A stretch of DNA of 64,000 nucleotides, from contig OY725506.1 of NCBI GenBank assembly GCA_963281255.1, positions 2,027,001 to 2,091,000 on the forward strand, in the 5' to 3' direction. This stretch comes from Aphrocallistes beatrix (Eukaryota > Porifera > Hexactinellida > Sceptrulophora > Aphrocallistidae). Below are positions 198 through 12,304 of the stretch, in pieces. A program made the translations under genes and the position numbers. The notes beneath the pieces are model-generated. The model ran no database searches. It was not told the DNA's origin and saw only the letters and a list, made by a program, of their open reading frames with translations. The stretch's first letter is position 1. Each line of letters begins with the position of its first letter.

Positions 198-3100
198 GGA
201 TACCGCCCTCGAAAAAACATATGATTTGTCTTACAGCATAAGATGAAAGTAGAGCTATAGGAGATGTTAAGCGTGGGGAGGTATCCCCATCAAGAAATAC
301 TGGCACATTCCAAAACGTTTTTGATTACCATCTCTAGTTTTTGAGATACAGTGTCTCAAAGTCTGTTTTTTTAGTTTTCCGCTAGCACATCTTAATAGTA
401 GAAATTTGGGCACTCAAGGAATTGTTTAGGACATACCAAGGAATCAAATGCTTCCAAAATCGAATCATAGATAGTCTACCATTTGCAACTTCATAGGACC
501 AGAAGAATGTTAAAATGACAAATATTGTAAATTGTATCGGTGTCCGAAAAAAAAGGGCCAAAAATGTCTGTTTTTTTGGGGAAATCAGGAATAAAATCAC
601 CGAGTGAGAATATTTCAAAAAAATGGTGGTCCTACGTTCATCGCCTAATGATATGGAACAACTCTTGAAATTTTCAAACTTCAATCTCAAACCAAATTTG
701 AGAAATAATTCTGTAAAGACGGTCAATTTTGAAATTTTAAAGTCCCAAGATATAGAGATTTTAAGTTTAGGTGTTAAGAATAATGTAAAAGAGTTATTAA
801 TAATGAACAAAAGCATTAACAGACATTTATTCGCATTCATACTGCTGATTTAGGTATATTAGAACCAAATATTTACAAAAAATAGCAAGAGTACCCTGAA
901 AATCCACAAATTTCCTTGAGGCTCCTAACGAATATTTTGAGATAATTGTAAATAATAATTCATATTCCTGGCATTGCGAAGTATAATCTATCAGTTTAGA
1001 ATGAATAAAAAGGTTCCAAAAAGTATATTAGGAAGTTAGAGCAAAATTCTACGACTTTTATTTTCGAAGTTGGGATTTTCGGAAAATGCTACGTCATCAT
1101 ATGACAAAAATCTAAAACTTAACATTCCATAGGGTGTGGTGCAATTATTATCAAAGAATCATATATGTACACTCATAAAAAGTTTATTAGGAAGTGAGAA
1201 TTAAGAATTTGGACTTATATTTACGGAGATAGAGAGATATCTCTTTTTGGACCCTAAATGGGGGTTTTTGACCGAATCTTCGAGGTCCATGGCCAGAACT
1301 TTTAAAATAATTATCAAAAGTTCTCCAATTCTTCTGTACATATTATTAACGACAATTGTATCCATTATTTATCATAATAGCTAAATTTGGACACCTATTT
1401 AATGATTAGATTCGCAATTTTCTAATAGATTCAAAGTCCTTCATAGAATTTGTATTACAATTCATTCAATGATAATTCGAGAATTATTTATTTTTTGACA
1501 ATGGAATGTTCGAGGAACCTATATATTTTCGCATATATCCTTTTATTTAAGGATATAATATATTATATATCTACAATAGTTTTTAAGATATGACATCGGC
1601 CTCTTTCGGGACCTTAGAGGGATATTATGTACGAACTTTACCTATAATAAGCGATATCTCAAGAACAAATGGTCGGATCCGAACCAATTTTTTTTTGAAA
1701 CGATCAGAATTTTATTTCTGACCCAGTGATCGCTAAATATCTGAGATCAAACTTGCGATTTCCCGAGCATTATAAAAATGAACTCCCTTTTAGAGCTATT
1801 TTGTTTGGATTTTATTTGCCCATTCTTTTAAATCTTTGTGTTATATAATCTCCAAAGGTGCCAAAACAATGTTAAGATCCATATCATTAAAAAAATAACA
1901 AATAAGTTAAAAACTAATTGGTAAATGAGCTAAAAACCTCCAATAATTTTTCAATTTTTATTAACGCTAAACTTTAGGGGGTTATCGCACAAAAAATAAA
2001 AAAGATACCGTCCAAATAGTGCTATCAGATGGTAGACCGACACAGGCCAACAAAAAAATATTTTTGTCTCTTGGCTCAGATTGTTGGAGCGTTTTTGGGG
2101 TATATCGGGGTTGCTGAATCCGAAAATACTATTAGTTTTGCTGAATTGGCTCTAGTTTTCTAGATATTACACAACCTTAAATTTTGAGATAATTTACAAA
2201 TATATGCGATTTGTAGGTTTATTACAACATTTACATCTATTTGTTCACTCTATTTCCAGCATATTAGAACCTTTCATGTATTCAAAGCGCATTAGACGTT
2301 GTTGCCTCAATGATCCTGATGTCTTTTGCTATATTTGTGGTGAATATATGACAAAGGAACATCGTTTTAATGTTAGAGATGTCACCAAAAAAGCTTATCA
2401 GGCTTACTTTGGTATGAAGTTAGGCGATCAGGATAAGTCATGGAGCCCTCACAAAGTGTGCAAGTATTGCACAGAAACCCTCCGCTTGTGGACACAAGGA
2501 AAAGCCAAATCCATGAAGTTTGGGATACCAATGGTTTGGCGAGAGCCCAAGAACCATCACGATGACTGTTACTTCTGCATGGTTAACATGTCTGGATGGA
2601 ACCGAATGAAAAAGAATTCGTGGCAATATCCTGACATAGATTCTGCAAGACGGCCAATTCCACACTGCAGCGAAATTCAGGTGCCTGTTTTTACATCTTT
2701 ACCTGATCTAGTTCCTGATACTGCGTTTACTCAGGCTATTGATGAATCGTCGGACAGCACTTACAGCAGCAATAGCTGTATTGAGTCGTTACAGATAAGT
2801 AAAGCGGAGCCTTTCACACAGGGGCAGCTCAACGACTTAGTGAGAGACTTAGGCTTGTCAAAAGATGCTTCAGAGATCCTGGCATCCCGTCTCAGTGAAC
2901 ACCATGTTCTCCACAGTGAAGCTATGATAACTTATTACCGACGCAGAGACGAAGAACTTATCCGCTATTTCAGTAAAGAAGGCGATTTCGTGTTTTGTAA
3001 TAACATCCCAGGACTTCTCTCAGCGATGGGACTGTCCCAATACAATCCGAATGAGTGGCGTTTATTTATCGACAGCTCTAAACGGAGTTTAAAGTGTGTG

Positions 3101-3425
3101 TTGCTGCATAATGGTAACAAGTTTGCCTGTGTTCCGATCGGCCATTCAGTAATCTTGAAAGAGCACTACGCAACTGTAAAGATGGTCCTACAAAAGCTGT
3201 GTTATGATGAACATAACTGGATCGCGTGTGTGGACTTGAAAATGGTCAACATTCTGTTAGGACAGCAAAGTGGTTACACTAAATACCCATGCTTTCTTTG
3301 TTTGTGGGACAGCAGAGCGAATGAGGTGCACTGGGTTACTGATCGCGATCAGTAATACAATGAAATTAGCAATACAAAATTTTGCCGTTTTTTACGCCAG
3401 GCAACGTTTTTTGAGGGCGGTATCC
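198..3425 (+). mobile_element. TTAA-A element, coding copy (A1)
   Basis: The left end reads GGATACCGCCCTCGAAAA and the right end is its inverted copy. The element is flanked by TTGA (194-197) and TTAA (3426-3429), consistent with a TTAA target duplication with one change. About 1.85 kb of left-hand DNA (198-2040) has no convincing gene but is shared with all other copies here. Then comes a coding block (about 2045-3345) absent from the other copies, then about 80 bases of right end. ORF-less copies join left and right parts exactly where this block sits (gaccg/atcag), so they look like internal deletion derivatives. TTAA duplication is known for piggyBac and Kolobok; the termini do not match piggyBac as I know it, so the superfamily is left open. 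Confidence 0.85.
2204..3355 (+). CDS. Truncated zinc-ligand, RNase-H-like orphan protein of the TTAA-A element
   Basis: The open frame is 383 residues; translation may begin at the internal Met of MYSKRIRRCCLNDPDVFCY, since the first 25 residues look non-coding. N-terminal zinc-ligand pattern: CYICGEY (about residue 43), CKYC (about 87) and CYFC (about 122), with the segment KLGDQDKSWSPHKVCKYC. The C-terminal half has RLFIDSSKRSLKCVLLHNG, then CVDLKMVNILLGQQ and KYPCFLCLWDSR. Known family: I recall close relatives annotated as uncharacterized proteins in arthropods and hydrozoans, about twice as long, ending with a conserved glutamate-rich block. Inference: an acidic residue followed by C-x2-C nineteen residues later resembles the second catalytic Asp plus zinc site of RAG1/Transib-type DDE transposases. 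The frame runs straight into the right terminal repeat, so the 3' half is lost. It is probably inactive. Confidence 0.75.
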   Translation: MRFVGLLQHLHLFVHSISSILEPFMYSKRIRRCCLNDPDVFCYICGEYMTKEHRFNVRDVTKKAYQAYFGMKLGDQDKSWSPHKVCKYCTETLRLWTQGKAKSMKFGIPMVWREPKNHHDDCYFCMVNMSGWNRMKKNSWQYPDIDSARRPIPHCSEIQVPVFTSLPDLVPDTAFTQAIDESSDSTYSSNSCIESLQISKAEPFTQGQLNDLVRDLGLSKDASEILASRLSEHHVLHSEAMITYYRRRDEELIRYFSKEGDFVFCNNIPGLLSAMGLSQYNPNEWRLFIDSSKRSLKCVLLHNGNKFACVPIGHSVILKEHYATVKMVLQKLCYDEHNWIACVDLKMVNILLGQQSGYTKYPCFLCLWDSRANEVHWVTDRDQ

Positions 3426-3429
3426 TTAA

Positions 3430-7233: not shown

Positions 7234-9191
7234 GGATACCGCCCTCGAAAAACCTTGCCTGGCGTAAAAACGGCAAATTTTTTATCGCAAATTTCATTGT
7301 ATTACTGATCGGTCTGCCATTTGATAGCACTACATATTTGGACGGTATTTTTTTATACTTTTTGTGAGATAACCCCCTAAAGTTTAGCGTTAATAAAAAT
7401 TGAAAAATCTTTGGCGGTTTTCAACTCATTTACCAATTAATTTTTAACTTACTTGATATTTTTTAATGATATGGACCTTAACATTGTTTTGGCACCTTTG
7501 GAGATTATATAACAAAAAGATTTAATAGAATGGGCAAATAAAATCCAAACAAAATAGCTCAATAAGGGAGTTCATTTATATAATGCTCGGGAAATCGCAA
7601 GTTTGATCTCAGATATTTAGTGATCACTGAGTCAGAAATATAATTCTGATCGTTTCAAAAAAAAATTGGTTCGGATCCAACCATTTGTTCTTGAGATATC
7701 GCTTATTATAGGTAAGTTCGGGCATAATATCCCTATAAGGTCCCGAAAGTGGCTGATTTCATATCTTATAAACTATTGTAAATATATAATATATAATATC
7801 CTTAAATAAAAGCATATATGCGAAAATATACAGGTTCCTCGAACATACCTTTATCAAAAAATAAAATATTCTCGACTTATCATTGATTTAATTGTAATAC
7901 AAATTATATGGAGAACTTTGAATCTATTAGAAAATGGCGAATCTAATCATTAAATATGTGTCCAAATTTAGCTATTATGATAAATAATGAATACAATTGT
8001 CGTTAATAATGTGTACAGAAAAATTGGAGAACTTTTGATAATTATTTTGAAAGTTCTGGCCTTGGACCTAGCAGATTCGGTCAAAACCCCCCATTTAGGG
8101 TCCAAAAAGATATATCTCTCTATCTCTGTAAATAAAAGTCCAAATTCTTAGTTCTCACTTCCTAATATACTTTTTATGATGGTACACATATAATTCTTTG
8201 ATAATATTTGCACTACATCCTATGGAATGTAAGTTTTAGATTTTTGTCCTATGATGACGTAGCATTTTTCGAAAATCCTAACTTGGAAACTAAAAGTCGT
8301 AGACTTTCGCTCTAACTTCCTAATATACTTTTTAGAAGTTTTTATTCATTCTAAACTGATATATTATACTTCGCAGTGCCAGGAATATGGATTATTATTT
8401 TAATTATATCAAAATATTCAGAGTTAGTGGCCTCTAGGAAATATGTGGATTTTCAGGGTACTTTTGCTAATTTTGTAAATATTTGGTTCTAATATACCTA
8501 AATCAGCAGTATGAATGGGAATAAATATCTGTGAATGCTTTTGTTCATTTATAATAACTCATTTTACATTCTTCTTAACACCTAAACTTAAAATCGATCA
8601 TATATATCTTAACACCTAAACTTAAATTCGATCATATATATCGATCATATATATCTATATCTCGGGACTTTAAAATTTCAAAATTGACCGTCTTTATAGA
8701 ATTATTTCTCAAATTTGGATTGAGATAGAAGTTTGAAAATTTCAAGAGTTGCTCCATATCATTAGGCGATGAACGTAGGACCTCCATTTTTTTGAGATAT
8801 TCTAACTCGGTGATTTTATTCCTGATTTGCCCAAAAAACTGACATTTTTCGCCCCTTTTTTTTCGGACACCGATAAAATTTACAATTTTTTGTCATTTTA
8901 CCTTTCTTCTGGTCCCATTAAGTTACAAATAAGGTAGACTATCTATGATTCGATTTTAGAAGCATTTGATTCCTTGAGTGCCCAAATTTCTACCATTAAG
9001 ATGTGCTAGCGGAAAACGAAAAAAACAGACTTTGAGACACTGTATATCAGAACTAGAAATGATAATCAAAAACGCTTTGGATTGTGCCAGTATTTCTTGA
9101 TGAAGATACCTCCCCACGCTTAACATCTCTTATAGCTCTACTTTCATCGTATGCTGTAAGCCAAATCATATGATTTTCGAGGGCGGTATCC
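7234..9191 (-). mobile_element. TTAA-A element, complete ORF-less copy (A4)
   Basis: 1,958 bp with both terminal repeats (GGATACCGCCCTCGAAAA at each end, inverted) and a perfect TTAA on each side (7230-7233, 9192-9195). Orientation is opposite to A1. It contains the whole 1.85-kb left region joined to the short right end and no coding block. A small tandem duplication of 'cttaacacctaaactta' and 'cgatcatatatat' lies at about 8575-8660. Confidence 0.9.
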
Positions 9192-9996: not shown

Positions 9997-12304
9997 GGAT
10001 ACCGCACGCGAAAAACCTTGCCTGGCGTAAAAGAAAACGGCAAAATTTTTTATTGCTAATTTCATTGTATTACTGAGCGGCAGAGGCGTAGCTTACACCC
10101 ATGCCGCCCTTCAACCAGGGGCAGATACAGGGTTTAGACTCAAGGGGGGCCCAAAAGCGAGCGAAGGTAATGGGAAGCGAATGTTGGAATATTCGTCTCA
10201 AATAAAGGAATAATTGGCCCCCCCCTGTTTCCGCCCGTGCCCTCAACACATATTTCTACCTCAACTTGGCAAGTGTATTAACTTAATTTGTGGTGTGTTT
10301 TTTTCCCATTTATATTTTTAATTGTTTAATTGTTTATTCATTAACTAATATTGTTGTAATACAAAACTAGAATCAGTGTAAGTAAATATCATTCATAGTT
10401 TGCCGGCCCTATTAAGCGCCGCCCGGGGCGGTCCGTCCCACTCGCCCCCCTAGCTACGCCATTGCTGAGCGGTCTACCATCTGATAGTACTAGTTGGATG
10501 GTATTTATTTTGATTTTTATGAGTTAACCCCCTAAAGTTTAACGTTACTAAAAATTGAAAAATTATTGGAGGTTTTTAACGGATTCACCAATTAGTTTTT
10601 AACTTATTTTATAATTTTTTAATGATATGGACCTTAACATTGTTTTGGCACCTTTGGAGATTATATAACACAAAGATTTAAAAGAATGGGCAAATAAAAT
10701 CCAAACAAAATAGCTCTATAAGGGAGTTCATTTATATAATGCTCGGGAAATCGCATGTTTGATCTCAGATATTTAGCGATCACTGAGTCAGAAATATAAT
10801 TCTGATCGTTTTTTAAAAAATTTTTTTCAGATCCGACCAGTTTGTGAGATATCGCTTATTATAGGTAAAGTTCGGGCATAATATCTCCCAATGGTCCAGA
10901 AAGAGGCCGATGTCATATCTTAAAAACTACTGAAGATATATAATCTATTTTCTCAAATAAAAGGATATATGCGAAAATATTTAGGTTCCTCAAACATTCC
11001 TTTGTCAAAAAATTAATATTTCTCGACCTATCATTGATTTAATTGCAATACAAATTCTATGGCGATTTTTGAATATATTAGAAAATGGCGAATCTCATCA
11101 TTAAATATGTATCCAAATGTTGCAATTATGCTAAATAATGAATACAATTGTCGATAATAATGTGTACAGAAAAATTGGAGAACTTTTAATAATTAATAAG
11201 TTCTGGGCCTTAGACCTCCCAGATCCGGTCAAAAACCCCCATTTAGGGTCCAAAAAGAGATATCTCTCTGTCTCTGTAAATATAAGCCCTTCTCACTTCC
11301 TAATATACTTTTTATGTGGGCACATATATTATTCATTGATAATAATTGCACTACATCCTATGGAATGTAAGTTTTAGATTTTGTCATATGATGACGTAGC
11401 ATTTTTCGAAAATCCTAACTTCGAAGCTAAAAGTCGTAGACTTTCGTTCTAACTTCCTAAAATACTTTTTGTAAGCTCTTTATTCATTCTAAACTGATAG
11501 ATTATACTTCGAAGTGGCAGGAATATGAATTTTTATTTACAATTATAATAAAAATATTCGGGGTTAGGGGCCTCAACGAAATTTGTGGATTTTCAGGGTA
11601 CTCTTGCTATTTTTTTAAATATTTGTTTTGAATATACCTAAATCAGCAGTATAAATGCGAATAAATGTCTGTGAATGCTTTTGTTCATTTATAATAACTC
11701 ATTTTACATTGCTCTTAACAGCTGAACTTAAAATCTCTATATCTCGGGAATTTAAATTTTCAAAATTGACCGTCTTTACAGAATTTTAAGTCAAAATTGG
11801 TTTGAGATAGAGGCTTGAAAATTTTAAGAGTTGTTCCATATCATTAGGCAATGAACGTAGGACCACTATATTTTCGATATCTTATAATTTGGTGATTTTA
11901 TTCCTGATTTCCCCATAAAAACAGACATTTTTCGCCGCTTTCTGACCCTTTTTTTCGTATACCAATAAAATTTGCAATTTTTGTCATTTTAACTTTCTTT
12001 TGGTCCTATGAAGTGGCAAATATGGTAGACTATCTATGGTTCGATTTTGGAAGCATTTGTTTCCTTGGTATGTCCTAAACAATTCCTTGAGTGGCCGGAT
12101 TCCTACCATTAAGATGTGTTAGCGATAAACGAAAAAAACAGACTTTGAGTTACTGTATCTCAAAAACTAGAAATGAGAATCAAAAACGGTTTGGAATGTG
12201 CAAGTATTTCTTGACGGAGATACCTGCCCTCGCTTAACATCTCTTATAGCTCTACTTTCATCGTATGGTGTAACCCAAATCATGTTTTTTCGACGGCGGT
12301 ATCC
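9997..12304 (-). mobile_element. TTAA-A element inserted into a sibling copy (A5)
   Basis: Complete ORF-less copy with both termini, flanked by TTAA (9993-9996 and 12305-12308). It contains the small hAT-type element at 10081-10464. Removing it and one TTAA restores the outer copy's sequence, which directly supports TTAA as the target duplication. Confidence 0.85.
10081..10464. mobile_element. hAT-type MITE, 8-bp target duplication
   Basis: Ends CAGAGGCGTAGCT and, inverted, CAATGGCGTAGCT, flanked by a perfect 8-bp duplication CTGAGCGG (10073-10080, 10465-10472). CAGnGGCGTA termini and 8-bp duplications are hAT hallmarks. 384 bp, no coding sequence, with C-rich stretches just inside both ends. 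Confidence 0.88.

Follow-up and report, generated by a model that had tools for sequence, protein, structure and literature searches.

A truncated transposon of probable Chapaev3 type nested in a Kolobok-like TTAA element of the sponge Aphrocallistes beatrix

An open frame that lies between the inverted ends of a repeat family raises the question of whether the gene and the ends belong to the same element. This question arises at 198-3425 of a 64,000-nucleotide stretch of the Aphrocallistes beatrix genome (contig OY725506.1, positions 2,027,001 to 2,091,000; hereafter the window). A first-pass annotation, made from the letters of the window, had assigned the frame found there, which belongs to a protein family starting with a CLNDPD...CYICG signature, to the surrounding element as its TTAA-targeting transposase. 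The frame, of 383 aa, is indeed present. However, it is very probably the product of another history, in which a younger Chapaev3-type transposon inserted itself into a Kolobok-like, non-autonomous TTAA copy, lost its right part and had the break sealed.

The surrounding element is bounded by GGATACCGCC and its reverse complement, GGCGGTATCC (Table 1). It is followed on the right by TTAA and preceded on the left by TTGA, one base off that sequence. The window holds nine ends of this family, eight of them exact and one, at 9997, with a single mismatch, and an exact TTAA adjoins seven of the nine. One-mismatch GGATACCGCC-like strings at 277 and 28545 have no TTAA flank and were excluded from the count. 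The genome searched, a 100.5-Mb assembly of 28 contigs within which the window lies, contains 1,511 exact GGATACCGCC ends (749 forward and 762 reverse), against 39 matches (22 and 17) to the same string read backwards. The excess is far beyond chance and the family is abundant, which bears out the earlier observation that the frame is surrounded by the inverted ends of a multi-copy family. Copies with the same ends and without the frame are also found, for example at 7234-9191 (1,958 bp).

When the element was compared by BLAST with the rest of the window, the alignment stopped at 2040 and restarted at 3346, with the two pieces sharing a 3-base overlap in the copy at 7234-9191. Between them is an insert of 1,305 bp, flanked by a 3-bp duplication, CGA. 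Other copies of the family run through this site unbroken: those ending at 7234 and 39457 read GACCGATCAGTAA and four more (at 10470 and 13028, and in loci L004 and L005) read GACCGCTCAG; for the copy at 9997, the comparison is possible on the right side only. In the window itself, the site reads GACCGA, followed by the 1,305 bp and then CGATCAGTAA, and joining the flanks without the insert and without one CGA gives the sequence of the other copies. The CGA duplication, together with the empty sister sites, identifies an insertion event. Since the sister copies are uninterrupted, the frame was inserted into this element and not lost elsewhere; the frame-less copies are real, as the first-pass annotation had it, but they never lost a frame. 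The left junction of the insert occurs once in the genome when up to two mismatches are allowed.

Table 1. Features of the TTAA element and its insert, in window positions.
Feature	Positions	Strand	Basis or detail
Host TTAA element, first part	198..2040		GGATACCGCC end at 198-207; 87.8% identical to 7234-9191
CGA target duplication, left copy	2038..2040		Sister-copy comparison
Foreign insert: truncated 5' part of Chapaev3-type transposon plus 10-bp filler	2041..3345	+	Uninterrupted sister sites; identity to L010
Chapaev3-type left terminus, intact, CACAGGCCAACAA	2041..2053	+	Ends of full copies
383-aa frame: residues 1-377 = N-terminal part of 592-aa transposase; tail = filler and host sequence	2204..3355	+	Alignment
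Perfect 20-bp palindrome, TTACTGATCG / CGATCAGTAA	3336..3355		First 10 bp = filler replacing the missing right part of ~900 bp
CGA target duplication, right copy	3346..3348		Sister-copy comparison
Host TTAA element, second part	3346..3425		GGCGGTATCC end at 3416-3425, then TTAA at 3426-3429

The protein encoded in the window has at least 112 matches in the genome, many of them only pieces, and its closest relatives cease to agree with it after residue 377 or 378. Copies such as the one at locus L010 are 2,195 bp long, start CACAGGCCAACA, finish TGTTGGCCAGTG and encode a protein of 592 aa. The insert matches the first 1,295 bp of this element at 99.6% identity without a gap. Full copies have the termini CACAGG...CCAGTG, of which the window copy keeps the left one, while the right one is absent. 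Set against the 87.8% between the host element and its own relative, this 99.6% identity makes it probable that the insertion postdates the host copy.

There are 29 loci that bear the frame (L010-L038), several of which overlap and show the same copy. For the count of target duplications, 24 of them were taken, omitting L030, L031, L036 and L038, which overlap others, and L029, which possibly does so. Both ends were found in 15 loci; the nine in which they were not found are uncounted. Matching 3-bp flanks are present in 14 of the 15 two-ended copies, 13 of them being TWA (TTA or TAA) and one CTA, and there is no matching duplication at L021. The duplication is preceded by A and followed by T in 12 of the 15 and not in the other three. 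A second family (L034, L035) likewise has a GTG end followed by TTA or TAA. The frame is therefore a transposon gene, as had been proposed for the CLNDPD...CYICG family: it is multi-copy and near-identical, and it sits between inverted repeats with target duplications. The accompanying expectation that its relatives would lie between GGATACCGCC-type ends is not borne out within this genome, as GGATACCGCC, with up to one mismatch, was not found in the roughly 1.5 kb of fetched flank of any of the 29 loci. Some Chapaev3-type copies (L016, L017, L021 and L023) are longer, at 2.5-3.0 kb, and have extra internal sequence in their first few hundred bases.

The 592-aa protein contains, in order, the motifs FIDSS (288), CVDLK (342), CFLC (363), PPLH (409), LHYLYSH (519) and SEEQGERFH (537), and thus two Asp, C(2)C, LH, H(4)H and a Glu. 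The catalytic residues would be among these. Paralogue pieces that are 35-64% identical retain most of the motifs, the exceptions being FH for LH in L034 and FNDSS for FIDSS in one piece at L037. PMC4079192 describes Chapaev3 elements as having CAC/GTG termini, a TWA duplication between A and T, and transposases, mostly encoded in one exon, that carry the motifs C(2)C, LH and H(4)H; Garfield_BM of the silkworm is a 2,289-bp element with a 556-aa protein. The sponge element resembles Chapaev3 (CMC group; Garfield, Merrow, Conan) in its CAC...GTG ends and TWA duplication between A and T, in its size of about 2.2-2.3 kb with one transposase of about 560-590 aa, and in C(2)C, LH, H(4)H and candidate DDE residues (PMC4079192). 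The window copy differs in being truncated and in having CGA instead of TWA as its duplication. PMC4411706 describes a Chapa zinc finger that is present in Chapaev3 and common to RAG1, and the N-terminal CYIC, CKYC and CYFC pairs of the 592-aa protein may correspond to it. The family, for which an unclassified group had been considered, thus fits the published Chapaev3 hallmarks (PMC4079192) and appears to be a Chapaev3-type element, a known kind of transposon and routine transposon biology.

Profile and structure searches gave little for comparison. The 592-aa protein had no match in Pfam, NCBIfam or, by sequence, the PDB, and Pfam gave a single line for the frame in the window, FYVE at E = 2.3, a noise-level hit. 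The AlphaFold model is of low confidence (mean pLDDT 48, 12 alignment rows), and a Foldseek search with it returned nothing at E <= 0.001. No relatives of the 592-aa protein were found in viral contigs and phages.

CAC/GTG-like ends are also a feature of CACTA and Mirage elements. There is a small chance that the nesting is as described and that the insert comes from another branch of CMC (CACTA/EnSpm, Mirage or Chapaev proper) or from a lineage close to Chapaev3 that lies outside it: the Chapaev3 name is drawn from published hallmarks, and Chapaev overall is reported to have termini of the CAC/GTG kind with duplications of 3 to 4 bp (PMC4079192). However, the TWA between A and T, the sizes of the element and its ORF, and the one-exon frame are those of Chapaev3 (PMC4079192), and a Chapaev3-type element is the preferred assignment.

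The right end of the insert is broken. The two Asp and C(2)C are kept in the window frame, which breaks off ahead of the LH and H(4)H motifs and of the Glu that is a candidate for catalysis; lacking these, it most likely has no enzymatic function. From 3336 onwards, it runs through 10 bp of filler into host sequence. Those 10 bp are an exact inverted copy of the flank next to them, which makes a perfect palindrome centred on the boundary between insert and flank. Palindrome arms of at least 10 were counted at 15 positions among the roughly 63,900 of the window, so that a match at this one boundary has a probability of some 2 in 10,000, judged post hoc. At L031, a locus without a known empty site, the truncated left end has a 6-bp palindrome arm; the breaks at L011 and L022 were left out of the scoring.

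According to the preferred scheme, a Chapaev3-type cut-and-paste transposon entered the GGATACCGCC-ended TTAA element and duplicated the target CGA. The insert has lost its right ~900 bp, with the right terminus and the final stretch of the transposase gene, of which the frame is a remnant; this loss would have come after the insertion, and the break would have been sealed with the 10-bp inverted copy of the flank.

RAG1-type enzymes leave hairpins on flanking DNA. The palindrome might accordingly be imagined as a P-nucleotide footprint, formed if the Chapaev3 transposase had cut the right end and made a hairpin on the flank that was then opened off-centre, leaving the 10-bp inverted copy. This reading is rather improbable: there is a single case, and general fold-back repair would leave the same trace. 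A literature search on hairpins and footprints in Chapaev had no paper naming Chapaev among the matches listed. If true, the footprint reading would provide evidence at the sequence level that Chapaev3 forms RAG-like hairpins on the flank.

A foreign piece of a gene between intact TTAA-family ends could also have arisen if the TTAA element had captured a fragment of a Chapaev3 gene by repair and now carried it as cargo. This is very unlikely, as the piece begins exactly at a transposon terminus and comes with a target duplication, like an insertion, and the left junction, with its single occurrence, offers nothing to suggest that the composite is mobile as one element.

Full-length relatives of the TTAA element carry a different transposase gene. 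A genome search with the profile PF20700 gave 115 matches. At L058, an open frame of 824 codons precedes a GGCGGTATCC end that is followed by TTAA; this copy has no recognisable left end and aligns with L064 from about 110 bp inwards. The 164 bp inside the L058 end match at nine places, eight of which lie, by eye, within 2.3 kb of a match to the L058 protein (two of these, on C15, might represent a single copy); the remaining place, C2:513920, has no such match within 2.3 kb. L064 has both ends, 4,945 bp in all, with TTAA on either side, and aligns to the 1.9-kb element over its left 1.4 kb, in two blocks of 70-72% identity. L065 is 5,192 bp long, again with TTAA on either side, and has two mismatches in its right end. 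The PF20700 transposase frame is broken in both. L066 has a right end with TTAA, and its left end is absent from the fetched part. Since there are full-length relatives with a PF20700 gene, the abundant 1.9-kb element is most likely, on the evidence of these alignments, a non-autonomous relative of the PF20700 elements of about 5 kb.

Kolobok elements are marked by TTAA and by 5'-RR...YY-3' termini, the latter separating them from piggyBac, which also targets TTAA (PMC9587614). The host family shares the TTAA duplication with Kolobok, and its GG...CC termini agree with RR...YY (PMC9587614); it is Kolobok-like by target and termini, as the first-pass annotation had suggested. THAP and H2CH domains are given as usual in Xenopus Kolobok in PMC6004289. 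The host family differs in having a PF20700 "Mutator-like" transposase with a C-terminal PHD match below the Pfam cut-off. The Pfam hits of the intact 823-aa PF20700 protein at E <= 1 consist of PF20700, PHD and a PHD variant only; as THAP is not seen among them, the family is called Kolobok-like and is not filed as a member of Kolobok. Four PF20700 frames carry CxxH strings by eye (CTTH, CLAH, CLTH and CIGH), candidates for the C/DxxH that lies between the second D and the E of Kolobok DDE transposases.

A piggyBac-type transposase was considered as a partner for the family and set aside. PF13843 has 108 matches in the genome, several of them in open frames over 500 aa. Nine loci among the 12 best-scored of the 108 were fetched, and in none of the nine did the surrounding 1.5 kb or so contain GGATACCGCC when one mismatch was allowed, or a TTAA-flanked GGATACCGCC when two were. 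The host family has the same TTAA target as piggyBac and differs from it in the RR...YY termini (PMC9587614).

The remaining possibility, that the frame is the TTAA element's own transposase and the other copies are its deletion derivatives, agrees with the position of the frame between GGATACCGCC ends in one copy and is refuted by the uninterrupted sister copies with the 3-bp duplication, by the separate ends and target of the other frame copies, by the absence of TTAA-family ends from the roughly 1.5 kb around the frame at all 29 loci, by the single left junction and by the different gene, PF20700, in full-length TTAA relatives. The placement of the frame between TTAA ends is accidental, an ordinary nested insertion of a separate CAC...GTG transposon. 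The correction matters because the CLNDPD...CYICG proteins would otherwise be misnamed as TTAA (Kolobok) transposases from one nested copy. A pointer to the right transposase for the abundant GGATACCGCC family is a further gain, as is a case in which sister copies prove an insertion.

Several other elements were encountered along with the TTAA family. Element B (L060/L054/L061) has the left end AGATACCGCC after TTAA and encodes a different PF20700 protein; its right end was not found, and it was not used as proof. Eight PF20700 matches have identical scores, with a frame of 902 aa in seven and 771 aa in one. The left boundary of L052, L062 and L063 starts GGGTCC, following TTAA in one of the three, and their right boundary is beyond the stretch read. 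Over more than 4 kb, these three share 99.5-99.7% identity, which suggests recent activity of another family. An autonomous TTAA element was also sought among long GGATACCGCC pairs on C1, in a screen that drew on 100 of the 1,511 ends; the four pairs fetched (L039-L042) turned out to be the usual element with other insertions. One of them, L039 (C1:2975932-2979936), has a nested 372-aa frame that is Tc1-transposase-like by eye. A further Chapaev3-type copy, at L011:1353-3532, is likewise nested in a TTAA element; the first 14 bp of this copy are missing.
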